Positions 3,221-35,858 of a stretch of 37,388 nucleotides of DNA are shown piece after piece (within the stretch, counting starts at the first letter, position 1; each line of letters opens with the position of its first letter). The stretch is from contig NZ_JADGIA010000022.1 of assembly GCF_019683635.1 (NCBI RefSeq), forward strand, positions 1-37,388, written 5' to 3'. A model generated the notes under the pieces. The model did not search any database and was not told where the DNA came from. It was given only the letters and a program-made list of their open reading frames with translations. Source of the stretch: Thermogemmatispora sp. GTDB lineage: Bacteria; Chloroflexota; Ktedonobacteria; Ktedonobacterales; Ktedonobacteraceae. The translations under genes and the position numbers were made by a program.

Positions 3221-4513
3221 ATGCCGACCCCAAATCGTCGCCTTAGGCAGGCACGTGAACTACGAGGTTGGTCCCAGGCCAAAGTTGCGGAGCAGATTGG
3301 TACCGATGCCACCACGGTCAGCCGTTGGGAGAGAGGGTTGTTTTCTCCAACCCCCTACTTTCGTGAGAAGCTCTGTCAGCTCTTTGGCAAGAACGCCGAG
3401 GAGCTAGGGCTGCTAGACAGTGGCAAGGAGCAGCCTGGGGGGAGCGATGTCACGGCAATGGCGCCGGCGCTGGTAGGGAAGGAAGTAGGAGAGAACGGCC
3501 ATGCGCTGCCCTGGGGAATGATGCCGCCCCAAGCGCCGTCATGGCAGCAACGCACGGACACCTTTGCCTATATTTTGCAGAGTGCGGTTCATGACGTACA
3601 GGCGCATCTCCTCTGGGAAGAGGCTTATGTACGAGTGCTCCAGGGTCAGCGAGCGCAGGCCCAGCGCTCAGGGGAAGCCAGTTTGACCGCCTTCGAGCAA
3701 GTTGGGCACATGAACGCTGCCGTTCTGCGCGAGTGGTTGCAACAGCATGGGCTGCTCACCTCGTCATCGCCCCCCTCCACTCCTTCTTCGGCTGGGGTGG
3801 TCGATCCGCCTGCGTCTCAGCAGCACCAGCACTCACCAACTGCCGCGTCAGCCCCAGGGTCTGGGTCTGGGGCCTCTGAGAGACCGGTCGGAGCCATTCG
3901 TCGCTTTGGCTATGGCCGGAGCCTGGGTTTCCTCCTGGTGCTCATGATAGTGGCCGCGGTGGTTCTTTGTGGACTTTCGCTTGGCCAGCTGCAGCCTACC
4001 GTTCTTTCCTCGCCTCGCCTTGCTGGCTCAGGGCAGGATGCCCGCACTCTTGACGCAGTCCCCGCTTCTTCAACAACTACGCCGACGCTCACCACTCCGT
4101 CGGCGACGGTGGTTCCACCTGCAAAGACATCTCAGCCCACGCAGCCCCCTTCCTCCTCTACGCCTCTGGTCCAGGCCTCGCCGACCGTCGCTGCGGCCTC
4201 CGCTGCTCTGATGATTACAGTCACTCCGGGTAAACTCACACCACGTGACTGCGTCCTTGAAGCTCTTGGCTATCGTTGCACGATAACGCTGTGGCCTTTC
4301 ACTGGCCAGGCCGACAAGCTCTCCTGGCAAGCGAGTAGTCGTGATCTCCCTGTCCGTTTCAATCCGCCAGGAGGCATCTGTACCCCGGGGCAGCCGTTTG
4401 AGGTCATCACCTACATTGTGAGCAACCCTGGTCAGCAGGGTCGCCTCTTCTTTACCTTCATGATACCGTCTTCGGGCGCCACCTACACACAGATTGTGCT
4501 CTGGCAGGACTAG
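3221..4513 (+). CDS. Membrane-anchored XRE-family regulator with extracellular domain
   Basis: A 430-residue protein that probably binds DNA at its N-terminus while its C-terminus lies outside the membrane. The ATG at 3221 is preferred over upstream in-frame starts because GGAGGA sits 8 bases before it and the HTH begins at once. Residues about 7-62 are an XRE/Cro helix-turn-helix (LRQARELRGWSQAKVAEQIG...TTVSRWERG). A middle region holds an Ala/Gln-rich helical stretch. A single membrane segment lies at about 235-256, followed by a Ser/Thr/Pro linker (about 270-330) and a beta-rich domain with two or three Cys (about 331-430). It is flanked by GH74 and GH9 genes, so a role in sensing surface carbohydrate and controlling cellulases is plausible but inferred. 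The external domain was not assigned to a named family. Confidence 0.75.
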   Translation: MPTPNRRLRQARELRGWSQAKVAEQIGTDATTVSRWERGLFSPTPYFREKLCQLFGKNAEELGLLDSGKEQPGGSDVTAMAPALVGKEVGENGHALPWGMMPPQAPSWQQRTDTFAYILQSAVHDVQAHLLWEEAYVRVLQGQRAQAQRSGEASLTAFEQVGHMNAAVLREWLQQHGLLTSSSPPSTPSSAGVVDPPASQQHQHSPTAASAPGSGSGASERPVGAIRRFGYGRSLGFLLVLMIVAAVVLCGLSLGQLQPTVLSSPRLAGSGQDARTLDAVPASSTTTPTLTTPSATVVPPAKTSQPTQPPSSSTPLVQASPTVAAASAALMITVTPGKLTPRDCVLEALGYRCTITLWPFTGQADKLSWQASSRDLPVRFNPPGGICTPGQPFEVITYIVSNPGQQGRLFFTFMIPSSGATYTQIVLWQD

Positions 4514-20211: not shown

Positions 20212-21318
20212 CTAGCTGAACTCGATCACGCCCCGAATGTTCCGCCCGGCGAGCAGATCGTCGTAGGCTTCATTGATCTGGTCCAGCTTGTAGGTTCGCG
20301 TCACCAGCTCATCGAGCTTGATCTTACCGCTCTCGTACATGCGCAGCAGCATAGGAATATCGTTGCGCGGCTGCGAATCGCCGAAGATGGTACCCATGAG
20401 GGTCTTCTGGTAGAGGACCATATTGAGCGGAGAGATGGGAATGGCCTGGGCCAGGAAAGGCGAGAGACCAGCCACTACCACGGTCCCATTCTTGGCGGTG
20501 GCGTTGAAGGCCTGGGCAATGGTCTCCGGTGTGGCGATCGCCTCGAAGGCATAGTCGACGCCGACGCCCCAGGTCAATTCCAGAGCCTTATTGACAGGGT
20601 CTTCCTGGCTGGAGTTGATAGTGTGGGTGGCGCCGAATTCTTTGGCCTTCTCCAGCTTGAAATCATGGATGTCAACGGCGATGATCATACGCGCCCCGGC
20701 GATAGCCGCTCCCTGCACAATGTTCATGCCGATGCCGCCGCAGCCAATGACCATCACGGTGCTGCCGGGGGTGACATGGGCCCGATGGATGACGGAGCCG
20801 ACTCCGGTGGGGACGCCACAGCTCACGAGCACGGCCCGGCTCAGGGGATAGTAATCGGCAATCTTGACCACCGACATGGCGGGCACAACGGTGTATTCGC
20901 TGAAGCTGCCGATGTAGCAGAACTGGCCAATATCGCCCTTTTCGCCGTGCATGCGAAAGGTGCCGTCCAGCAAAGGACCGCTCAGCGTGCCCGCCCCCTT
21001 GTCGCAGAGGTTGCTGTGCCCGGAGACGCAGGAGGGACAGCTGCCGCAGGCGGGAATGAAGCTCATGAGAACATGGTCGCCCGGCTTCAGGTCGCTGATG
21101 CCAGGACCGACCTGCTCGACGATGCCGGCCCCTTCATGTCCGAGAGCCATTGGTAAGTAGGCTGGCAGGTCTCCTTTGACCACGTGATAATCGGAATGGC
21201 AGACGCCAGCGGCTACCATGCGTACGAGCACTTCCTGCTCTTTGGGCGGGTCAAGTTCGATCTCTTCAACGCGGATGGGGGTACCAGGTTCGTAGATGAC
21301 GGCGGTTCTGGTTTTCAT
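20212..21318 (-). CDS. Zinc alcohol dehydrogenase, NDMA-dependent/mycofactocin type
   Basis: Medium-chain zinc dehydrogenase of 368 residues that oxidises an alcohol to an aldehyde. The ATG at 21318 (MKTRTAVIYEPG) has an AGAGAGGA box before it and removes a non-conserved 48-residue extension. Catalytic zinc ligands are C40 and H61 (with E62 in GHEGAG); structural zinc Cys are C91, C94, C97 and C105 in CGSCPSC...NLC. The nucleotide-binding loop reads GCGGIGMNIVQGAA. The phrases SFIPACGSCPSC, GHSNLCDKGAG and LLDGTFRMHG resemble the NDMA-dependent alcohol dehydrogenases that co-occur with mycofactocin genes and hold NAD tightly, and mft genes follow within 3 kb. I infer that it regenerates through mycofactocin; ordinary NAD use cannot be excluded. 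Confidence 0.85.
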   Translation of the reverse strand: MKTRTAVIYEPGTPIRVEEIELDPPKEQEVLVRMVAAGVCHSDYHVVKGDLPAYLPMALGHEGAGIVEQVGPGISDLKPGDHVLMSFIPACGSCPSCVSGHSNLCDKGAGTLSGPLLDGTFRMHGEKGDIGQFCYIGSFSEYTVVPAMSVVKIADYYPLSRAVLVSCGVPTGVGSVIHRAHVTPGSTVMVIGCGGIGMNIVQGAAIAGARMIIAVDIHDFKLEKAKEFGATHTINSSQEDPVNKALELTWGVGVDYAFEAIATPETIAQAFNATAKNGTVVVAGLSPFLAQAIPISPLNMVLYQKTLMGTIFGDSQPRNDIPMLLRMYESGKIKLDELVTRTYKLDQINEAYDDLLAGRNIRGVIEFS

Positions 21319-21416
21319 CGTTGAAGTCCTCTCTTCTCTTGCGAACGCTGAGAGCCCCGGGCCGACGCGGCGCCCGGACTGGCTGCCCAAGTCAGCGACA
21401 AATACAATCATCCATA

Positions 21417-21446
21417 AGTATACTGGAAAGGATGCTTGTTCTACAA
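21417..21446 (-). promoter_or_regulatory. Candidate promoter of alcohol dehydrogenase
   Basis: On the minus strand, TTGTAG (21441-21446), an 18-bp spacer and TATACT (21417-21422). The predicted start is about 90 bp before the ATG. In the rest of 21319-21749 I see a small CTTAC-TTTTT-GTAAG hairpin near 21580 and no gene. Confidence 0.4.
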
Positions 21447-21749
21447 TGTCACTCTGGGGCAATCAAATGGCCGCTCTTTGTCTACCCACAACAAAACCCG
21501 GCGATAAACCCCATGACAGGCTCGGTCTGCTAGCCTTGTGCCCTCCCTTTCCATGTTGTATACTATTGTGTTTCTCCCTTACTTTTTGTAAGCAAGGGAG
21601 AAGAGAAGGGCAGCCACGAGGGAGAGCATAGGGAAGGACCCTTTCTACGCACTGGTGATGGCCCCTGTTTAGACAGCTGGTTGTAGTAGTAGAGTCGGTC
21701 AGCAAGTAAAGGAGGGCACGGCGCAGCAGCTCAGGGCCGTGCAGCAGCG

Positions 21750-23095: not shown

Positions 23096-23962
23096 CTAAC
23101 GAGTCAAATAACCGGCGTCAACGGGCAGAGCGCAGCCCGTTAAGTGTCGCGCCTCATCGGAAGCCAGCCAGAGCACGGCGGCGCTCACGTCCTCGGGCGG
23201 CAGCAGATTGCGATCGCTGAAGAGATTCATCTGATTCATCTGGCTGACCATATGTTCGTAAGTGGCTTGAGGGCCGGGGCCGCCGGCGAAGAGGTCGTAG
23301 AGGGCCTGGTTGAGGCACATCGTGGTGGCCACGCTGGTGGGGCAGACGGCATTGACATTAATATTGTAGGGGGCCAGCTCGCGAGCCAGCGTCTTCACCA
23401 GACCGATCACCCCGTGCTTGGCGGCCACGTAGTGGGCCAGGTGATCCATGCCTCTGAAGCTGGCCGTAGAGCCGATGCAGATGATTTTCCCCTGGCGCCG
23501 CTCCAGCATCTGAGGAATAGCCACCTTGCAGGTGATCCAGACGCCCTTGAGGTCGACGTTCATGGTCTCATCCCACTGCTCCTCTGTCATCTGCCAGCTC
23601 AGAGCGAAGGAATAGAGGCCGGCGTTGGCCACCACCACATCGATCGGTCCCAACTCCCGGCGAGCGCGTTCAGCCAGGGCCTCCATTGCTGGGAGATCAG
23701 TCACATCCACCTGAGCGGCAATCACCGGGCGTCCCAGGGCCTCAATCTCCCTGGCCACAGCAGCCAGCTCCTCGGGACTGGCCAGCGGATAAGGGACGCT
23801 GCGGTATTGGCGGCAGGCATCGCAGATCACCAGGCGTGCCCCTTCGCGGGCAAAAGCCAGAGCATGCGCGCGACCCTGGCCGCGCGCTGCACCGGTGATC
23901 AGAACGACGCGATCGGCAAAGCGCCCTCCAGCCGCCGGGCTAGTAGACTCCGCAGATGCCAT
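23096..23962 (-). CDS. Mycofactocin-coupled SDR oxidoreductase
   Basis: Short-chain dehydrogenase of 288 residues, likely oxidising a carbinol with tightly bound NAD that is recycled by mycofactocin. It shows the cofactor motif TGAARGQG (23-30), NAG, a Ser near 165, and Y178/K182 in HYVAAKHG. The insertion CDACRQYRSVPYPLASPEEL (about 47-66) after the second strand is the mark of mycofactocin-coupled SDRs. The ATG at 23962 is the only available start and sits inside the last codons of mftA, overlapping by 23 bp. This ties its translation to that of the precursor. GAGGA lies 11 bases before the ATG. The substrate is unknown. Confidence 0.9.
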   Translation of the reverse strand: MASAESTSPAAGGRFADRVVLITGAARGQGRAHALAFAREGARLVICDACRQYRSVPYPLASPEELAAVAREIEALGRPVIAAQVDVTDLPAMEALAERARRELGPIDVVVANAGLYSFALSWQMTEEQWDETMNVDLKGVWITCKVAIPQMLERRQGKIICIGSTASFRGMDHLAHYVAAKHGVIGLVKTLARELAPYNINVNAVCPTSVATTMCLNQALYDLFAGGPGPQATYEHMVSQMNQMNLFSDRNLLPPEDVSAAVLWLASDEARHLTGCALPVDAGYLTR

Positions 23963-24131
23963 CGATCGTGAAGTCCTCGATAATCAGCTCCTCTTCAAAC
24001 TCCTCCTCGGCCTCGGCTCCTGTGGTCTGCTCATCCACCAGCGAGGAGGGCAGCACTGGCTCTGTCTGACTGTAGGCAGACTGTTCTTCTGCTTCTGGGA
24101 AGTATCGGTCGTGCTCAAAGAGGAACTCCAT
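23940..24131 (-). CDS. mftA: Mycofactocin precursor peptide MftA
   Basis: Ribosomally made precursor of the redox cofactor mycofactocin. The last residues, FTIDGICGVY, match the invariant MftA tail, whose C-terminal Val-Tyr is modified by the radical SAM enzyme MftC and then released by MftE. At 63 residues it is about twice the length I know for actinobacterial MftA. The extra N-terminal part is very acidic (AEEEFEEELIIEDF). The ATG at 24131 has AAGGAG 11 bases upstream. The stop codon lies inside the SDR gene. mftB and mftC are found about 2.3 kb away on the other strand, with a penicillin-binding protein gene between. Confidence 0.93.
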   Translation of the reverse strand: MEFLFEHDRYFPEAEEQSAYSQTEPVLPSSLVDEQTTGAEAEEEFEEELIIEDFTIDGICGVY

Positions 24132-26316: not shown

Positions 26317-26461
26317 TCCTCTATATACCGTTCTCGCTGCGTCCGCTCGCGCAGTAAGCGAGCTGGCTTGGGAGTTGGGGAGCCAGGGGTCACCAGGCCC
26401 CTGCCTTCGCTGTAGACAGGCTGCCTATCTGCCTGACCAGCAGGTAGAAAGAAGGACTGCT

Positions 26462-26794
26462 ATGACCATGACAGCACATTCGGCGGGCTACCGCTATCGT
26501 CTGCTACCGGAGGTCAAGATTCGGCGCGAGGCCTTTGGCGGCATCCTCTATAAGTATGGCTGTGCTGATCGAGGAACGCTCTCATTCGTCAATTCTCCAC
26601 ATCTGATTGATCTGCTCCTCTTAGCGCGAGAGCAGTTTGCTGGCGATCTCAGTGCGGCCATCGAACAGCGAGTCTCCTCCGCAAGGTCCAGGGCTCGCCT
26701 CTTGGCGGCACTCGATGAGTTGCGGAAACGCGGCTATCTAGAGGCCGAGGTAGTCGCCAACAAGGCAGCACCTGAGGCGACGGCGGCTGAGTAG
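26462..26794 (+). CDS. mftB: Mycofactocin chaperone MftB (PqqD-like RRE)
   Basis: A 110-residue RiPP recognition element protein that binds the MftA leader and presents it to MftC. The sequence has the MftB pattern YRLLPEVKIRREAFGGILYKYG (about 11-32), then NSPHLIDLLLLA and a C-terminal helix-turn region ending in LRKRGYLEAE. The start at 26462 has AAGGA 5 bases before it; longer frames upstream would precede the likely transcription start. The acidic extension of this MftA and the basic stretches of MftB (KIRREAF) could be partners, which is inference. mftC follows after a 105-bp gap on the same strand. Confidence 0.92.
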   Translation: MTMTAHSAGYRYRLLPEVKIRREAFGGILYKYGCADRGTLSFVNSPHLIDLLLLAREQFAGDLSAAIEQRVSSARSRARLLAALDELRKRGYLEAEVVANKAAPEATAAE

Positions 26795-26899
26795 AGCGAG
26801 CAATGCGCGATGATTGTCTGGGCGCCGGCCTCTCTACGGGGGGCCGGGACAGCCACGAGCTGCCAAGCGGAGCACTCGTAGAAGAAGGAGCAGAAAGGC

Positions 26900-28072
26900 A
26901 TGATCCAATTCGTACAGTTTCATGGACGTCGCCACGAGGGGATGGGAAGCCAGAGGCGGGCGGAGCCTGGCGCTCTTCATCCCCTGGCCAGAGCTGCCTT
27001 TGCCGAGACTGGTGATTCGCCCTCGCCCGCGCAGGCCAGCGGCTCGCAGCGTTTCCTGCAAGGGGGACTCTCGGCGCCAATCACGGTCACCTGGGAGATC
27101 ACGGCTGCCTGCAATCTGACTTGCGTGCATTGTCTCTCCTCCTCGGGGAAGCGTCGTCCGCGTGAGCTGACGACAGAGCAGGCGCTGGCTGTGGTCGATG
27201 AGCTGGCCGAGATGCAGGTCTTCCAGATTCACTTTGGGGGGGGCGAGCCGTTCATGTATCCAGGCATCTGGCGCGTGCTGGAGCGCTGCCGCGAGCGTGA
27301 CCTGGTGATGTGCGTCAGCACGAATGGCACGCTGATCACACCTGAGCGTGCTCGACGCCTGGCTGCTCTGGAGCCGATTTATTTTCAGGTCAGCCTGGAT
27401 GGTGCCACCCCTGAGACCAATGATCGCATTCGTGGGCAAGACGCATTTCGGCGAGCCATGCGTGGCCTGGAGCGTCTGGCTGCCGAGGGCCTGAGTTTAA
27501 CCGTCAATAGTGTCCTGACGCGTTATAGCTTCCCCGAATTGGATCGTCTCTATGCGATTGCCGGCAACTTTGGCGCCAAACTGCGCGTGACGCGCCTGCG
27601 TCCTTCTGGTCGGGGGCGCGCGGTATGGGAAGAGCTACATCCCACGCGCGAGCAGTATCGCAGCTTCGTGGCCTGGCTGCGGGAGCATCCCGATGTGCTG
27701 ACCGCCGATTCATTTTTCCACCTGAATGCTTTCGGCGAGCGTCTGGCGGGGCTGGATATGTGTGGTGCGGCGACGGCCACCTGCTGTATTTGCCCCGAAG
27801 GCGAGGTCTATCCCTGCGCCTTCTTCCAGACACCCGAGTTCGAGGCTGGTAACCTGCATGAACAGAGTTTTCGTGAGATCTGGCGGCACTCGCCGGTCTT
27901 TGCCTTCTACCGCCAAATGGGAGCTGGCTCCTGTGGCGGCTGCGTGCGCTACGACCTCTGTCATGGCGGTTGCCCGGCCACCAAATGGTTCGTCCAGCGC
28001 AGCCTCCAAGTGCGCGACCCCGAGTGCGTGCTCGCTGCGCCTGAGGCCCCGTGCTCGTCGGCGGCCATCTAG
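26900..28072 (+). CDS. mftC: Mycofactocin radical SAM maturase MftC
   Basis: Radical SAM enzyme that decarboxylates the C-terminal Tyr of MftA and forms the Val-Tyr crosslink. It is 390 residues long. The SAM-cluster motif is C71-x3-C75-x2-C78 in ITAACNLTCVHCLSSSGK, the sequence typical of MftC. Further marks are FGGGEPFMYP, the SAM-binding STNGTLI, and a C-terminal SPASM-type Cys set (LDMCGAATATCCICPEGEVYPCAFF and CGGCVRYDLCHGGCPA) for auxiliary clusters. An N-terminal tail of about 55 residues precedes the barrel. The ATG at 26900 has AAGGAG about 9 bases upstream. With mftB it forms a two-gene unit; mftD and mftE, which usually follow, are absent here. Confidence 0.95.
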   Translation: MIQFVQFHGRRHEGMGSQRRAEPGALHPLARAAFAETGDSPSPAQASGSQRFLQGGLSAPITVTWEITAACNLTCVHCLSSSGKRRPRELTTEQALAVVDELAEMQVFQIHFGGGEPFMYPGIWRVLERCRERDLVMCVSTNGTLITPERARRLAALEPIYFQVSLDGATPETNDRIRGQDAFRRAMRGLERLAAEGLSLTVNSVLTRYSFPELDRLYAIAGNFGAKLRVTRLRPSGRGRAVWEELHPTREQYRSFVAWLREHPDVLTADSFFHLNAFGERLAGLDMCGAATATCCICPEGEVYPCAFFQTPEFEAGNLHEQSFREIWRHSPVFAFYRQMGAGSCGGCVRYDLCHGGCPATKWFVQRSLQVRDPECVLAAPEAPCSSAAI

Positions 28073-28328: not shown

Positions 28329-29150
28329 CTAGCGACGCTCCAGGCTGCGTAGAAATGTCAACACGGCCCGGTTGAAGGTCTCGGGGCGTTCGAGGTTCAG
28401 CATGTGGCGCGCGCCGCGGATAACCACCTTCTTGGCATCGATGATGCCGGCTTCAAGTAGGTCAGCCTGGGCCTGCATCTCCAGCGAGTCTTCGTCTCCG
28501 ATCAGAATCAAGGTCGGCTGGCGGATCTCAGCCAGACGCTGCAGGGCAGGTGGCCTGATCTGCTCGCTGGGCGCTGGATTCAGGTAGTGCACAAAGCTGT
28601 AGTCACGCAATAGCTCGCGGTAGCGCTGTGCTGCTTCTGGATATTCGTCCTCGTGCGGCATCATCGGATCAGTGGCCCACAGCTCATAGAGCTGCTCCTT
28701 ATCCTGCGCCCGGGCTGCGGCGGCGATGCGCTCCCCGCGCTCCAGCGTTTCTGGCATATAGTTATCGTAGCCGCTGATGTTGGCGGCGGCCAGAATCAGG
28801 GCATCGACCATCTCGGGATAGGTCAGGGCGAAATCGATGGCCACCCTGCCGCCCCTTGACAGGCCCAGCAAGTAGGCCCGGTCGATGGCCAGATCGTTGA
28901 GTACATCGTAAAGATCGCGGACATCCGAGTACTCGACGTTGCCCATCGCCGAGCGACCGAAGCCGCGTAGATCGTAGCGTACGACCTCGTAGTAGCGAGC
29001 GAACTCCATGAACTGCGGGTCCCAGGAGCGATGATCGAGCAAGCCGCTGTGGAGCAAGACCAGCGGATGGCCGCGTCCGGCGACTTCGTAGTAAAGTCGC
29101 GTACCGCGCGCTTCAATAAAACCCCATTCAGGTTCCAGTCTTCCTGCCAT
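28329..29150 (-). CDS. Alpha/beta-fold hydrolase in the mftF operon
   Basis: A 273-residue soluble alpha/beta hydrolase with probable esterase, lactonase or peptidase-like chemistry. The oxyanion region is LVLLHSGLLDHRSWD. The nucleophile is S98 in GLSRGG, the acid is D219 or D221 in IGDEDS, and the base is H249 in RGARHML. No signal peptide is seen, so it acts in the cytoplasm. It begins 28 bp after the mftF stop on the same strand and has an AAAGGAGGTGA box 12 bases before the ATG. Location after mftF suggests a part in mycofactocin maturation or in metabolism of the alcohols that it helps oxidise; both are inference. The family is too broad to give a substrate. Confidence 0.85.
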   Translation of the reverse strand: MAGRLEPEWGFIEARGTRLYYEVAGRGHPLVLLHSGLLDHRSWDPQFMEFARYYEVVRYDLRGFGRSAMGNVEYSDVRDLYDVLNDLAIDRAYLLGLSRGGRVAIDFALTYPEMVDALILAAANISGYDNYMPETLERGERIAAAARAQDKEQLYELWATDPMMPHEDEYPEAAQRYRELLRDYSFVHYLNPAPSEQIRPPALQRLAEIRQPTLILIGDEDSLEMQAQADLLEAGIIDAKKVVIRGARHMLNLERPETFNRAVLTFLRSLERR

Positions 29151-29178: not shown

Positions 29179-30846
29179 CTATCGTTGCTCAGGTGAAGAT
29201 AGAGAGGGTGGGCCTGGCTCAGCTGGTTGAGCAAGTTGGGTAACTGTGGCATCCTTCCATTTTATCACAGCTAGCAATGGCCGCCAGGTGCGCTGCCTCC
29301 AGCAGCCGAGCAGCAGGCCGAGAGCGTAAGCGCAATCCTCTAGCAGAGAGTAGAGGGCGAATGCGGACAGGCTCAGGCGCGGGCGCAGGCGCGTGTAATC
29401 AACGCCTACCACCACGGCTTGCAGTAGGCCGACCAGCACCAAAAGCGGTGGAAAGAGCAGGCCCGCGGCTAGTAGTGCGAGGGTATAGTAGCGGGTCAGA
29501 TGGCGACAAAGGTGGTAGGTGTAGGCCAGGTAACTGCGCAGCGTGGCCTGCCAGATTTGCCAGGCTGTCAGCGGCAGACGAGCAAGCCGGGCAGCCTGAC
29601 GGCGACGCCAGGTGCTGGCTCCGGGCAGCAGCAGAGCCAAAAGCGCCAGTAAGAGCGAGAGGAGCGCCTGCCCTGTCCTGCTCGGGCGATGCCGACCCTG
29701 TGACCTGGTCCGCAAAAGGCTACCCAGGGGAAGTGCGGTAAAGAGCTGCCAGAGGCTGCCAAGTGTCAGGGCGGCAAAACTTGCCTCCCGGGGTGGGAGC
29801 AACAGTATCCGGCGCTGTTGTGGGTGAAGTTGTTGGAGCACAGCCTCGGCAGAGGCATAGCGCACGCGCGTCCCCAGGAACGTTCCAAGGCGGGTGCGAT
29901 AGTCATGGTAGACCACGCTCTCGGGAGCGGGCCAATAGCGGATGTGCCAGCCCTGAGCGAGCAGCCGATAGCAGAAATCAACGTCCTCGCCGCAGCTCAG
30001 GGGAGCAAAACCGCCCAGAGCCTGCCAGGCCTCGCGACGCACGAGCAAGCAGGCTGTGGGAAGATAGGTGAGTGGCCCACTCAAGCGTACCTCCTGCGGC
30101 TGCAAGCCCATGAAGAGCGAGGAACGGACGTCCTCATAACGTCCCAGGGCGCTGTCGGTTTCGTAAGCGCGGATTTGACCGCCGACGGCGGCCACCCTGG
30201 CCTCGGCGAAAAGGGGTACCAGAGTGGTGAGCCAGTCTGGCGTTACCACGCAGTCATCATCGACGAAGGCCAGAAGGTCGTAGCGAGCTGCGGCTGCGCC
30301 ACTGTTGCGGGCGCCAGCGGCTCCCTGGCGCCGGGTGTGGTGTAGACTGCGCAGTCTTACTCCACGACTGGCGAAAGCTGGGGCGAGGCGGGCGAGCAGA
30401 GCCGGCGTCTGATCGTGCGAAGCGTCATCGGCCACGATGACTTCCAGCGCCTGCGATGGATAGCGCAGCTCAAGGATGGCCTGCAGGCAGTGCTCAAGCT
30501 GGTGGACGCGGTTGCAGGTGGGTACGATCACGGAAACACCTGGCCACGACCTCGGCGGTAGGGGTGGGCCGGCCTCCAGTAGTCCTTTGGCGCTGAGCTG
30601 CTGGCAGAGCATGGTCACCCGCTTGGAAGTAAGTCCACTCAGGCGAACCAACTCCTCGCTGCTGCGCTCTTGACGGCACAGGTTGAGCAACCGCCAGGCT
30701 TGCTGGCCAAGGCGCAAGACGCGCAGCGGGTAGGAAGCGATAACCAGTCCCCCTGGCCGGCCATCTGTCCCTTCTAGCAGACATAGACCAGGCGCCTGGC
30801 GGTAGCAGCCAGGCGATGGATAATGGTAGCGCTGAGAACTCATCAC
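29179..30846 (-). CDS. mftF: Mycofactocin glycosyltransferase MftF
   Basis: Family-2 glycosyltransferase that attaches a beta-1,4-linked glucose chain to the mycofactocin precursor in mycobacteria. This protein has 555 residues. A PqqD-like leader/cofactor-binding domain comes first (about 10-92, LGQQAWRLLNLCRQERSSEELVRLSG). The GT2 domain starts at VSVIVPTCNR (about 104) with VADDAS and the DDD metal motif at 196-198 (LLAFVDDDC). The C-terminal third carries several hydrophobic segments, so it is likely membrane-associated. The start is GTG 30846 (or ATG 30843); the GTG overlaps the stop codon of the upstream gene by 4 bp (GTGA), which couples their translation. Its partner upstream is a GxGYxYP protein, an unusual neighbour for mftF. 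Confidence 0.92.
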   Translation of the reverse strand: MMSSQRYHYPSPGCYRQAPGLCLLEGTDGRPGGLVIASYPLRVLRLGQQAWRLLNLCRQERSSEELVRLSGLTSKRVTMLCQQLSAKGLLEAGPPLPPRSWPGVSVIVPTCNRVHQLEHCLQAILELRYPSQALEVIVADDASHDQTPALLARLAPAFASRGVRLRSLHHTRRQGAAGARNSGAAAARYDLLAFVDDDCVVTPDWLTTLVPLFAEARVAAVGGQIRAYETDSALGRYEDVRSSLFMGLQPQEVRLSGPLTYLPTACLLVRREAWQALGGFAPLSCGEDVDFCYRLLAQGWHIRYWPAPESVVYHDYRTRLGTFLGTRVRYASAEAVLQQLHPQQRRILLLPPREASFAALTLGSLWQLFTALPLGSLLRTRSQGRHRPSRTGQALLSLLLALLALLLPGASTWRRRQAARLARLPLTAWQIWQATLRSYLAYTYHLCRHLTRYYTLALLAAGLLFPPLLVLVGLLQAVVVGVDYTRLRPRLSLSAFALYSLLEDCAYALGLLLGCWRQRTWRPLLAVIKWKDATVTQLAQPAEPGPPSLSSPEQR

Positions 30847-32540
30847 GATTCTGCTCCTCTTGCTCCTTGCTGAGCAATGAGCTGCAGAAGCTGGCCTGGG
30901 GTCACGGGGGAAACGATCTCACGCAGTTCCTGCAAAGCCTCCCAGAGGGCGCTGGGCGTCAGGCGCCAGGCCAGCACATAGAGCTGGAGGAAGAGCGGGC
31001 GCCGGCGATGCGTGGCCTGCATTCCTCTGACGAGATGCACCAGCTGAGACCTGCTGCTGACAAGGCCCAGGTTATGATAGACGGGCACGCCCATGATTTT
31101 CTTATAGCTTAGGGTGAGGCCACCAGCACCTGTGAGCAGGCCACGCAGCCCGGCGGGCCGGAGGGCCTCGATAAAGGCACGCTGCTCCTCAACATTAGCC
31201 ATGCGCATACTAGCCGGGAGCGGTAGGCCCAGCCGCTGACGCCAGTCGCCATCGAGCACCTGCAGGAGAGAGAGGCCCATCCCAGAGAGCAGGCGCTGGC
31301 TATGCTCCAGGAAGGCTGGTCGCTGAGCGACTGGCCAGCTCGATGGGAACATGTAGGCGGCACCGCTGGGGCCGGCGATCAGCTCGTCCTGGGGACTGGC
31401 TGTCTCCAGATAATAGAGCGCCAGAGCGGGAGCGGCCTCCAGGAGTGCTGGTGCGATCGTCCAGCCGAGCGGGAATCTGCCGCGGGCCGGATCGCGCCAC
31501 AGATGCAGCATACGATGCTGCGCGTATTGCAGATTATCGCCGTCACTGATTGTCAAAGACAGATAGACGCGTGGCTCCAGGGCCGGCAGCGGGCGCTCAT
31601 CCTGCTGACGGCGATAGCGCTGAGCCAGGGCCTGGAGGCGTTCGATCAGCGCTGGCGGCTGCAGAGCAGTCCAGATCTCTAGATTGCTGCAATGATCGCT
31701 TGCCAGGACCGCCACGGCCCGCTCTGAAGCCAGCGTTACCCCGCTTCCCTCGTCCGGGAACCAGCCCAGATGGATGCTGCCGGGGAGAAGCTCTGCGAGC
31801 AGCTCCTCCAGGAGCTGGCGCTGCTGGCCTGCGGAGGGCCGCCAGGGACGCGAATCGAGCCAGTGGACGAAAGTACGCGTAGCTACCAGGAAGGAGCGCA
31901 AGCCGCTGGCAATCTCTGGATTCATACCGGCCAGGGATCGTCGCGATCGCTGGGTCTGGCTGATCTCTCTTGCCCAGCGATAGGCCAGGCTCTCACTCTC
32001 CCAGCGTGAAAGGCGCAGATCCCTCAACACTGGCTTCTCTCCAGCTGCTTGTAGCAGTGGCAGCAGCTCGGGGGCTGCCACCACTCCCGCCTGGATACCG
32101 GCCAGCGTAGTCGCCACATTGATGCTGGCCGGGTGCTGTGGATCATAGACAATGAAGCCCGCGATGCGCGCCTGAAAGCGAGCGATCAGCTCCCTGAGCA
32201 AGGTCTCCCCTTGTGCTTCCAGTCTTTCCAGCTGCACGGACCAGGGGGTAATGGCGCTTTGCAGCCAGAAGAGATCATCGTCGTAGGTTACCAGGTAGAG
32301 CTGTGGCTGTGGCCCGTTCACCAGGCCAGCCAGCGTGCTGGCCGCCAGCTTAACAGCGAAGGAAGCATCGCGTAGATCTGCCACTGCCAAGCTGTGAGGC
32401 GCTCGCAGCTGTGGGAAAAAGCCGTTCACTGGCCAGTCGAGAGAGAACGAGGCCGCGCCCCGCTCGGCATCCATAGGGGGGAGCAGGTCCTTTCTGGACG
32501 GAAGCCAGTGCCTGGTGCTGCCTGTGGCCTCACCGAGCAC
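30843..32540 (-). CDS. GxGYxYP-family putative glycoside hydrolase, coupled to mftF
   Basis: A protein of up to 565 residues that resembles the GxGYxYP putative glycoside hydrolase family. N-terminal part: FSLDWPVNGFFPQL...LYLVTYDDDLFWLQ. C-terminal part: YLSLTISDGDNLQY with DGDN at 333-336, RGRFPLGWTIAPAL, and the signature region GPSGAAYMFPSSWP, where G-A-A-Y-M-F-P (393-399) is a variant of GxGYxYP with Ala for the second Gly and Phe for the second Tyr. No signal peptide or membrane segment is seen, so it is probably cytoplasmic. The GTG at 32540 has no ribosome site; ATG 32474 is an alternative that keeps all domains. Its stop overlaps the mftF start by 4 bp. A role in trimming or building the mycofactocin glycan is my inference; no activity is established for this family member. 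Confidence 0.8.
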   Translation of the reverse strand: MLGEATGSTRHWLPSRKDLLPPMDAERGAASFSLDWPVNGFFPQLRAPHSLAVADLRDASFAVKLAASTLAGLVNGPQPQLYLVTYDDDLFWLQSAITPWSVQLERLEAQGETLLRELIARFQARIAGFIVYDPQHPASINVATTLAGIQAGVVAAPELLPLLQAAGEKPVLRDLRLSRWESESLAYRWAREISQTQRSRRSLAGMNPEIASGLRSFLVATRTFVHWLDSRPWRPSAGQQRQLLEELLAELLPGSIHLGWFPDEGSGVTLASERAVAVLASDHCSNLEIWTALQPPALIERLQALAQRYRRQQDERPLPALEPRVYLSLTISDGDNLQYAQHRMLHLWRDPARGRFPLGWTIAPALLEAAPALALYYLETASPQDELIAGPSGAAYMFPSSWPVAQRPAFLEHSQRLLSGMGLSLLQVLDGDWRQRLGLPLPASMRMANVEEQRAFIEALRPAGLRGLLTGAGGLTLSYKKIMGVPVYHNLGLVSSRSQLVHLVRGMQATHRRRPLFLQLYVLAWRLTPSALWEALQELREIVSPVTPGQLLQLIAQQGARGAES

Positions 32541-32659
32541 TGGCTAACATCGCTTTCTTTGAGAGGATTATAGGGTGTCAAGCTGCCCCCGTCAAGGGAA
32601 GGAAGCTTATCCTCACCTGCTGATGATTCGAAATGTATGAAACCAGAACGAATGCTGTA

Positions 32660-32847: not shown

Positions 32848-34467
32848 ATGCCAGAGAAAATGTTTGCTCCCGAGTTGTTCAGACCCCCCGTCGAGTTCCC
32901 GGAAGTTCCCTATGATCACCTGCTGCGCAGGGCGGCGGAGCGTAACCCCGATGGGCGGGCTATCATTTACCATGACCTCAGCCTGACCTATCGAGAGGTT
33001 GTCTCGATGGTGAACTGCATTGCCAATGGACTGTACAATCTGGGACTACGCAAAGGCGAGCGGCTCTGCATATTTACCCTCAATCGGCCAGAATATACCA
33101 TCACCTTCATCGCCGCGGCCTCCATCGGTCTGGTTGTGTCCCCGATGAATCCCTCCTATAAAGAGCGCGAGATTGCCTATCAACTGGAGAACTCGGAGGC
33201 CAGTGCCATCCTGGTGCAGCGCGAGTTACTGCCACTGCTGCAGGCTGTTCTGGCGCAGAAGTCGCTACCCAATCTGAAGCATGTTATCGTTACCGGGAGC
33301 CACGTACCCGAGGGCATGCCCCAGGCGATCCCCTTCGGGCGCCTGCTGCGCGAGTCCTCGCCGAAGGCGCCGCCGACGGTCCCGATCGATCCTGATGACC
33401 TGCTGGCGCTTCCCTATTCCTCGGGCACGACCGGCCTGCCCAAGGGAACGATGCTTACACACCGCAATCTGGTCTCCAATAACCTGCAATTCACCACGGC
33501 GCTCCAGACAACCTTCACAGATGTGGCTCTGCTCTTCCTGCCTTTCTACCACATCTACGGCGTCATGCTGACTGGGGGGTTCCTGGCCTGTGGAGCCACG
33601 CAGATCATTATGGAGCGCTTTGATATGCTCCAGTCTCTGGAGCTATGCGAGAAATATAATGTAACTTACTACTTTGCAGTCCCCCCGATTATCCTGGCGC
33701 TGGCCAATGCTCCCATTGATCTGAGCAAGCTCAAGAGCGTCAAATACATCTTCTCCGGAGCGGCCCCGCTGGCACCGGAGCCAGCGCGCAAAGTGCAGGA
33801 AAAGACTGGCATTCAGGTCGTCCAGGGCTATGGCCTGACCGAAGCCTCGCCGCTCACCCATGCTCAGCCAAAGGACCCGGCTCTGGTACGGCTGGAGAGC
33901 GTCGGCCTGCCCGTGCACAATACCGAGCAGAAAATTGTCGACATCGAGACCGGCACGCGCGAGCTGCCGGTCGGCGAGGATGGGGAGATCATCATTCGTG
34001 GTCCCCAGGTCATGAAAGGCTACTGGAAGGCGCCCGAGGAGACGGCTCAGACGCTGCGCGACGGCTGGCTCTATACAGGTGACATCGGCCATGTCGACGA
34101 AGACGGCTACACCTACATTGTTGATCGCAAGAAAGAGATGATCAAGTACAAGGGCTTTGGCATCGCCCCCGCTGAGATCGAGGCCCTGCTCCTGGAGCAT
34201 CCTGCGGTCATGGATGCGGCGGTAATCCCCGTACCTGATCCCGAGGCCGGCGAGGTGCCCAAAGGCTTTGTCGTCCTGCGTCCAGGTCAGAGTGTGACGC
34301 CCGATGAGCTGATCGCCTTTGTCAATGGACGCCTGGCCGGTTACAAGCGCCTGGGCTTGGTGGAATTCATCGATTCCATTCCCAAGGTAGCTTCTGGGAA
34401 GATTCTCCGTCGCGAGCTGAAGGAGCGCGAGCGTGCACGTCGCGCCGCTGAACAGCAAGCCCTCTAG
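32848..34467 (+). CDS. Fatty-acyl/4-coumarate-type CoA ligase (ANL family)
   Basis: Adenylate-forming ligase of 539 residues that activates a carboxylic acid as acyl-AMP and then acyl-CoA, feeding beta-oxidation. The phosphate loop YSSGTTGLPKG is at 190-200. Next come FYHIYG, the adenine motif GYGLTEASP, DGWLYTGDIGHVDEDGY with the ribose-binding Asp, DRKKEMIKYKG (hinge), and the catalytic lysine K518 in PKVASGKILRREL. Length and all core motifs are normal. AAAGGA lies about 8 bases before the ATG. A promoter and terminator stand in its leader. It may supply the thiolase and dehydrogenase operon at 16.3-19.8 kb with acids derived from alcohols oxidised by the mycofactocin-linked enzymes; this is inference. 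Chain length cannot be judged. Confidence 0.92.
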   Translation: MPEKMFAPELFRPPVEFPEVPYDHLLRRAAERNPDGRAIIYHDLSLTYREVVSMVNCIANGLYNLGLRKGERLCIFTLNRPEYTITFIAAASIGLVVSPMNPSYKEREIAYQLENSEASAILVQRELLPLLQAVLAQKSLPNLKHVIVTGSHVPEGMPQAIPFGRLLRESSPKAPPTVPIDPDDLLALPYSSGTTGLPKGTMLTHRNLVSNNLQFTTALQTTFTDVALLFLPFYHIYGVMLTGGFLACGATQIIMERFDMLQSLELCEKYNVTYYFAVPPIILALANAPIDLSKLKSVKYIFSGAAPLAPEPARKVQEKTGIQVVQGYGLTEASPLTHAQPKDPALVRLESVGLPVHNTEQKIVDIETGTRELPVGEDGEIIIRGPQVMKGYWKAPEETAQTLRDGWLYTGDIGHVDEDGYTYIVDRKKEMIKYKGFGIAPAEIEALLLEHPAVMDAAVIPVPDPEAGEVPKGFVVLRPGQSVTPDELIAFVNGRLAGYKRLGLVEFIDSIPKVASGKILRRELKERERARRAAEQQAL

Positions 34468-34776: not shown

Positions 34777-35766
34777 TCAGAGTGTGCTCAGGAACATGCC
34801 GCGGGCCAAAACCTCGCCTGCCAGCGTCATGACGACGATCAAGTAGAGCATGCCCGTGGCCGATTGGAAAGAGCGTTCACGCGCCAGCTTCCAGGTGAGG
34901 GCGCCCAGGACGAGCGGGAAGGCGAAGCCGAGCAGGATGCGCAGCCAGCCGAGAACGTCCATGCTCAAAGGACTGGCCGTCGGAACGCTGGCCGGCTTGA
35001 CGGTTGCAGAAGCGCCTGAGACGGTTGGTGCAGGCGTCGGACTGGCTATGGTTGTCGCCGTGGCCTGAGCTGCATGAGTGGCGGCGGTTGAAGTGGCAGG
35101 GCCGGCTACAGTAGAGCTGACCAGCGTCAGGAGAATCTGAAGCACAATGGCAATCAGCACCACGGCTGTGCTGAACAGGAGCGGGCGCTCGCTCAGGGCT
35201 GGCGTGACAAGATACCAGTGGCCGAGCCACATCGAGGTCATCACGCCGCCGACAGCCAGGGCCGCTATAAAGAAGCTCACAACGGTCAGGGCTTCCCCGA
35301 GCGGCGAGGGCGCGAGTGGGCGGTAAATCATGCCCAGTACAAAGAGCATGAGCAAACCAGCCACTGAAGCCAGACCGCCGCTTACCAGTCGCAGGACCCG
35401 TACCACAGAAAATTGCCCTTCCCCGGCTTGAGCTGCTTTCTCTTTGCCATCTACTCCGGCTCGCCGGTCCAGGATCAGGAAGAGCAAATAGGGCAGCAGT
35501 AGCAGTAGAAAGGCCAGCAGCGCCGGGCTGGCATAGCCAGTCCACTGCTTGTCGAGTCGCTCAAAGCTATCCAGCAATGGTTGGGAGGAGAAGCTCTGCT
35601 GGAAAAGATAGGTGAGAGCGGTGAAGAGGAGATAGATGATGGTGAAAAAGAGTAGAAAGCTGCGCCGCACCTCACTACGCCAGTCCAGCACGTAGAGCAG
35701 CAGGAACGAGCCGATGGCCAGCTCGTTCATGACAATTGAAAGCACCAGTGGGAGTGTCTGTATCAT
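34777..35766 (-). CDS. Multi-pass membrane protein with periplasmic Thr/Ala/Pro loop
   Basis: A 329-residue integral membrane protein from the ATG at 35766 (MIQTLPLVLSIVMNELAIGSFLLLYVL); a weak AAGGA lies 12 bases upstream. I count seven or eight hydrophobic segments. A low-complexity Thr/Ala/Pro loop (AGPATSTAATHAAQATATT and following) lies between the sixth and the last two. The motif SMWLGHWYLVTPAL follows the fifth segment; its His and Trp could bind heme or a quinone, but this is a guess. I do not recognise the family. A promoter with a consensus -10 lies about 85 bp upstream. The gene stands alone on its strand. Confidence 0.7.
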   Translation of the reverse strand: MIQTLPLVLSIVMNELAIGSFLLLYVLDWRSEVRRSFLLFFTIIYLLFTALTYLFQQSFSSQPLLDSFERLDKQWTGYASPALLAFLLLLLPYLLFLILDRRAGVDGKEKAAQAGEGQFSVVRVLRLVSGGLASVAGLLMLFVLGMIYRPLAPSPLGEALTVVSFFIAALAVGGVMTSMWLGHWYLVTPALSERPLLFSTAVVLIAIVLQILLTLVSSTVAGPATSTAATHAAQATATTIASPTPAPTVSGASATVKPASVPTASPLSMDVLGWLRILLGFAFPLVLGALTWKLARERSFQSATGMLYLIVVMTLAGEVLARGMFLSTL

Positions 35767-35858
35767 GCCGGAAACATATCCTTTTAGCTCGCGTCTTCCT
35801 TTGGGGTGATGCCGACAGCACAGCCAACAGGGAGCAGCAGCGGCCCTCACCCTGACAG

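Follow-up and report, generated by a model that had tools for sequence, protein, structure and literature searches.

A GxGYxYP-family gene overlapping mftF in Thermogemmatispora: probably a neighbour rather than a general component of the mycofactocin pathway

Genes and features of the locus

The window, a stretch of 37,388 nucleotides from Thermogemmatispora sp. (contig NZ_JADGIA010000022.1), carries a GxGYxYP-family gene next to mycofactocin (mft) genes. The features are as follows.

20212-21462, minus strand: NDMA-dependent alcohol dehydrogenase (TIGR03989, 500 bits; cut-off 440)
23096-23962, minus strand: mycofactocin-coupled SDR (TIGR03971, 340.6 bits; cut-off 300)
23940-24131, minus strand: mftA, precursor peptide, with the C-terminal end ...IIEDFTIDGICGVY, the invariant peptide tail
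26459-26794, plus strand: mftB, above cut-off, with the start placed by its TIGR03967 alignment
26900-28072, plus strand: mftC, radical SAM maturase (TIGR03962, 428 bits)
28329-29150, minus strand: alpha/beta hydrolase, gene number three in the putative operon of the genus (Pfam and genus synteny)
29179-30846, minus strand: mftF, mycofactocin glycosyltransferase (TIGR03965, 359.7 bits; cut-off 280)
30843-30846, minus strand: 4-bp overlap (GTGA) between the stop of the GxGYxYP gene and the start of mftF
30843-32540, minus strand: GxGYxYP-family protein of an export-free clade, 565 aa, four Pfam domains above cut-off
32567-32595, minus strand: sigma-70-type promoter TTGACG-N17-TATAAT upstream of the GxGYxYP gene (11/12 match)
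32848-34467, plus strand: divergent FadD-type acyl-CoA ligase, conserved beside the GxGYxYP gene whether or not mft genes are present
34777-35850, minus strand: membrane protein of about 330 aa that belongs to this same conserved gene order

Read in the direction of transcription, the minus strand carries the GxGYxYP gene, then mftF, then the alpha/beta hydrolase gene; mftB and mftC (26459-28072) are convergent to these genes. The mftA gene overlaps the gene of the mycofactocin-coupled SDR, and a penicillin-binding-protein gene separates mftA from mftB and mftC. The profile score of mftF bears out its identification in the original prediction, made from the sequence of the window. Because mftA, mftB, mftC, and mftF are accompanied by the mycofactocin-coupled SDR and the NDMA-dependent alcohol dehydrogenase, the mycofactocin setting of the window is real. 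Whole-genome profile searches of four mft-bearing genomes (G000, G042, G020, and G019) give no MftD or MftE above cut-off, so, as a caution for every reading of the locus, the chemistry of the finished cofactor in this lineage, glycan included, is inferred. Speculatively, the alpha/beta hydrolase that follows mftF in the genus might stand in for the MftE peptidase. The literature searched contains no report joining mycofactocin with Thermogemmatispora.

In a Pfam profile search, the four GxGYxYP domains score 158.5 (PF14323), 50.1, 47.3, and 36 bits against gathering scores of 27, 24.4, 24.5, and 23.9, respectively. The AlphaFold model (mean pLDDT 90.8) consists of N-terminal repeats and a 7-stranded barrel, as in BT2193, the solved structure of which (PDB 3sgg) is its top PDB match (E 6.3e-31); the two sequences also match directly (phmmer E-value 2.6e-29). 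The predicted family assignment is thus correct. The model shows disorder over residues 1-31 (pLDDT < 50), and residues 1-22 vary between species. Therefore, the true start is probably Met23 (window 32474).

A catalytic triad of Glu272, Asp331, and Asp333 is predicted for BT2193, and glycoside hydrolase activity is predicted for the whole family (PMC4071793). These residues align with E264, D333, and D335 of the window protein, which also has N336 and Y396. Among 45 diverse sequences, E264, D335, N336, and Y396 never vary. The DGDN motif is intact, as predicted. The signature motif reads GAAYMFP, again as predicted, but it is not a meaningful alteration: the motif is GSSYIFP in BT2193 itself (PMC4071793) and GAGYMFP or GAGYIFP in most of the export-free clade, and we reject it as a sign of altered function.

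A search for an export signal in the window protein finds none, consistent with the predicted cytosolic location. From a simple reading of hydrophobicity and sequence, a Sec- or Tat-like N-terminus is present in most non-Ktedonobacterial GxGYxYP proteins of the best 80 loci and in none of the short Ktedonobacteraceae proteins.

Coupling of the GxGYxYP gene to mftF

The stop codon TGA of the GxGYxYP gene sits in the sequence GTGA, the GTG of which is the first start of mftF. This 4-bp overlap, the starting point of the original prediction, recurs throughout the six Thermogemmatispora genomes, as GTGA in five and as ATGA in one (G041). From the sequence, mftF may alternatively start at an ATG 3 nt downstream (GTGATG); in one genome (G040), the GTG is the only start, with no ATG 3 nt on. 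In a sister genus (G020), the GxGYxYP stop TAA abuts the TTG start of mftF. All six Thermogemmatispora genomes likewise preserve the TTGACG-N17-TATAAT promoter. Comparisons inside the genus give a dN/dS of 0.11-0.14 for the GxGYxYP gene and 0.16-0.19 for mftF; both genes are under purifying selection, and a pseudogene reading of the GxGYxYP gene of the window is rejected. The conserved overlap and promoter, together with the low dN/dS, indicate that the coupling is not due to chance at the level of this single genus.

In one Thermogemmatispora MAG (HOG45, G041; L049, about 4050-4200), a frameshift of one base divides the GxGYxYP gene in two, and mftF is still open. The frameshift may be an assembly error or decay.

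Distribution, neighbourhood, and phylogeny

The original prediction proposed the GxGYxYP protein as a new component of the mycofactocin pathway and suggested a survey of mftF neighbourhoods. Eight of 47 Ktedonobacteria genomes have mftC, and the identical eight carry mftF above cut-off. In seven of these, the six Thermogemmatispora genomes and the sister genus G020, the GxGYxYP gene lies directly upstream of mftF. In the eighth (G019), mftF directly adjoins fadD and the GxGYxYP gene is on another contig. Beyond Ktedonobacteria, the 36 mftF-bearing genomes searched (11 Chloroflexota and 25 Actinomycetota) contain no GxGYxYP gene; two positive controls matched in the search of the 25 actinobacterial genomes, and no positive control matched in that of the 11 Chloroflexota, although the same model did match in the search of the class Ktedonobacteria. 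Scanning about 85,000 species genomes yields 306 GxGYxYP relatives, and among the best 80 loci inspected only four have mftF near the GxGYxYP gene, all of them in Thermogemmatispora.

The pairing is thus confined to Thermogemmatispora and a single sister genus. Conversely, at least 15 genomes that have neither mftC nor mftF carry GxGYxYP orthologs. The GxGYxYP gene is therefore neither consistently paired with mftF or mftC across carriers nor absent from genomes without the pathway, and the proposal of a new pathway component is not sustained. As to the survey, the pairing does recur in the sister genus, but its absence from all 36 outside carriers is largely the result that the original prediction itself named as speaking against it.

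The usual neighbour of the GxGYxYP gene is fadD. Of 18 Ktedonobacteraceae loci from genera other than Thermogemmatispora, 12 have a divergent fadD adjoining the gene, and beyond fadD the same membrane protein of about 330 aa is usually present at these 12 loci. The downstream gene varies. It encodes a cytochrome P450 in three loci (L057, L062, and L061, the last also with a 4-bp overlap) and a DAO oxidoreductase in L058, and mobile RRXRR-HNH genes follow in L063 and L064; a constant glycosyltransferase partner downstream is accordingly rejected. In the UBA10473 genome G044, an NDMA-dependent alcohol dehydrogenase gene above the TIGR03989 cut-off directly follows the GxGYxYP gene (L083, 2976-4082), and mftC is not found in this genome, which is 84% complete.

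Several further observations concern these loci. The Ktedonobacteraceae GxGYxYP proteins in L077-L098 have no export signal, and their genes are mostly divergent from fadD. Another genome (G001) also has an NDMA-dependent alcohol dehydrogenase gene without mftC. The GxGYxYP gene of Thermosporothrix hazakensis (L059, 8315-17014) has LacI, SIS, PfkB, GntR, and xylose-isomerase-like genes in its vicinity, a setting of sugar metabolism.

In the GxGYxYP tree, the export-free proteins form one clade of 23 sequences (support 100/100) in which mft-bearing and mft-less genomes are mixed; 15 genomes of the tree are without mftC or mftF. The clade is seen only in Ktedonobacteraceae, the family of the window, and the Thermogemmatispora proteins are about 38-46% identical to the rest of it. 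Eighteen positions are conserved in the mft-less orthologs and changed in Thermogemmatispora. Because the protein of the sister genus G020 matches the mft-less consensus (the ancestral residue) at 17 of them and has a gap at the remaining one, no residue change tracks linkage to mft genes; an mft-specific residue shift, of which none is common to both mft-linked lineages, is rejected. The AU test marginally rejects a clade made up solely of the two mft-linked GxGYxYP lineages (p-AU 0.038) and does not reject one with G044 added (p-AU 0.19). In the FadD tree, G044 falls into one group with the mft-bearing genera, at modest support (84/88). This grouping fits a single arrival of the mft genes at the locus with later breakage in both directions, and it also fits an older mft locus that was lost elsewhere.

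Possible roles and comparison with known systems

The GxGYxYP protein probably neighbours the mycofactocin pathway without being a general part of it, because the coupling is found only in Thermogemmatispora and one cousin and close relatives occur in mycofactocin-less bacteria. We consider it likely that the protein is a cytosolic enzyme common to the Ktedonobacteraceae family, with a substrate independent of mycofactocin and a usual site beside divergent fadD, and that its position upstream of mftF is a local matter. By analogy with the BT2193 structure, it would be a glycan-acting hydrolase in which E264 of the N-terminal domain serves as the proton donor and D333 and D335 of the barrel as the base, facing each other across the inter-domain cleft. 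On the branch to Thermogemmatispora, the mft genes lie directly downstream of the GxGYxYP gene, so that the GxGYxYP promoter would drive transcription of mftF, and translation of mftF would start at the overlapping stop codon. As a counterpoint, the overlap and promoter in all six species and the nearly abutting pair in the sister genus would be expected of a functional pair too.

It is conceivable, though unlikely, that the proteins of Thermogemmatispora and G020 have been recruited locally and trim or remodel the β-1,4-glucan built by MftF on mycofactocin, setting its length. In mycobacteria, MftF builds β-1,4-glucose chains that cellulase can shorten (PMC7491314), and the predicted acids fit, in BT2193, the site template of a GH9 cellulase (PMC4071793); the conserved overlap and promoter and the purifying selection on both genes also point this way. 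The mftF-coupled protein is the sole GxGYxYP protein found in Thermogemmatispora, and recruitment is possible there because this single copy could serve both roles. However, the pairing is absent outside two genera, orthologs persist without mft genes, mftF of G019 has no GxGYxYP gene nearby, the two mft-linked lineages share no residue changes, and their exclusive clade is marginally rejected.

The FadD grouping with G044 and the NDMA-dependent alcohol dehydrogenase gene directly after the G044 GxGYxYP gene suggest that the locus was possibly an mft locus at an early stage. On that basis, the GxGYxYP gene might be a relic of an ancestral mycofactocin cluster of the family, retained for another role after the mft genes were lost in most genera. 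We regard this as rather improbable, since many losses of mft genes would be needed, the other mft genes are missing at the locus in most mft-less relatives, and the G044 genome is incomplete. A non-catalytic sensor or carrier, with the cleft holding a glycan, possibly that of mycofactocin, would suit a family for which no member with proven activity is found in the literature searched, but it is very improbable, as the invariance of the predicted catalytic E264 and D335 in 45 diverse sequences suits catalysis better.

The survey keeps a plausible yet lineage-limited gene pairing out of the mycofactocin pathway. If local recruitment were true, glycan length would be an adjustable property of the cofactor, and an orphan family would gain an intracellular substrate. 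The compact export-free clade, with a single copy in Thermogemmatispora, offers a convenient GxGYxYP member to assay, and the coupled pair allows a cheap test on a defined glycan.

Three known systems can be compared. First, the mycofactocin cluster is matched by mftB, mftC, and mftF above cut-off, the mftA tail, the mycofactocin-coupled SDR, and the NDMA-dependent alcohol dehydrogenase; the locus differs in that no MftD or MftE scores above cut-off in the four genomes and that a GxGYxYP gene is added upstream of mftF. Second, the three-acid geometry of the GH9 cellulase E4 site (PDB 1js4) is alike in the homologue BT2193, as published (PMC4071793), whereas the fold is unrelated, and the literature searched shows no activity for any GxGYxYP member. 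Third, the window protein has the four domains of the GxGYxYP family (PF16216, PF20957, PF20958, and PF14323) in the same order, and it shares with BT2193 the fold (TM 0.75/0.82), the three acids (E272, D331, and D333, corresponding to E264, D333, and D335), and the Asn and Tyr of the site. Unlike BT2193, it carries no export signal, belongs to a clade restricted to Ktedonobacteraceae, and is encoded outside a polysaccharide utilisation locus.
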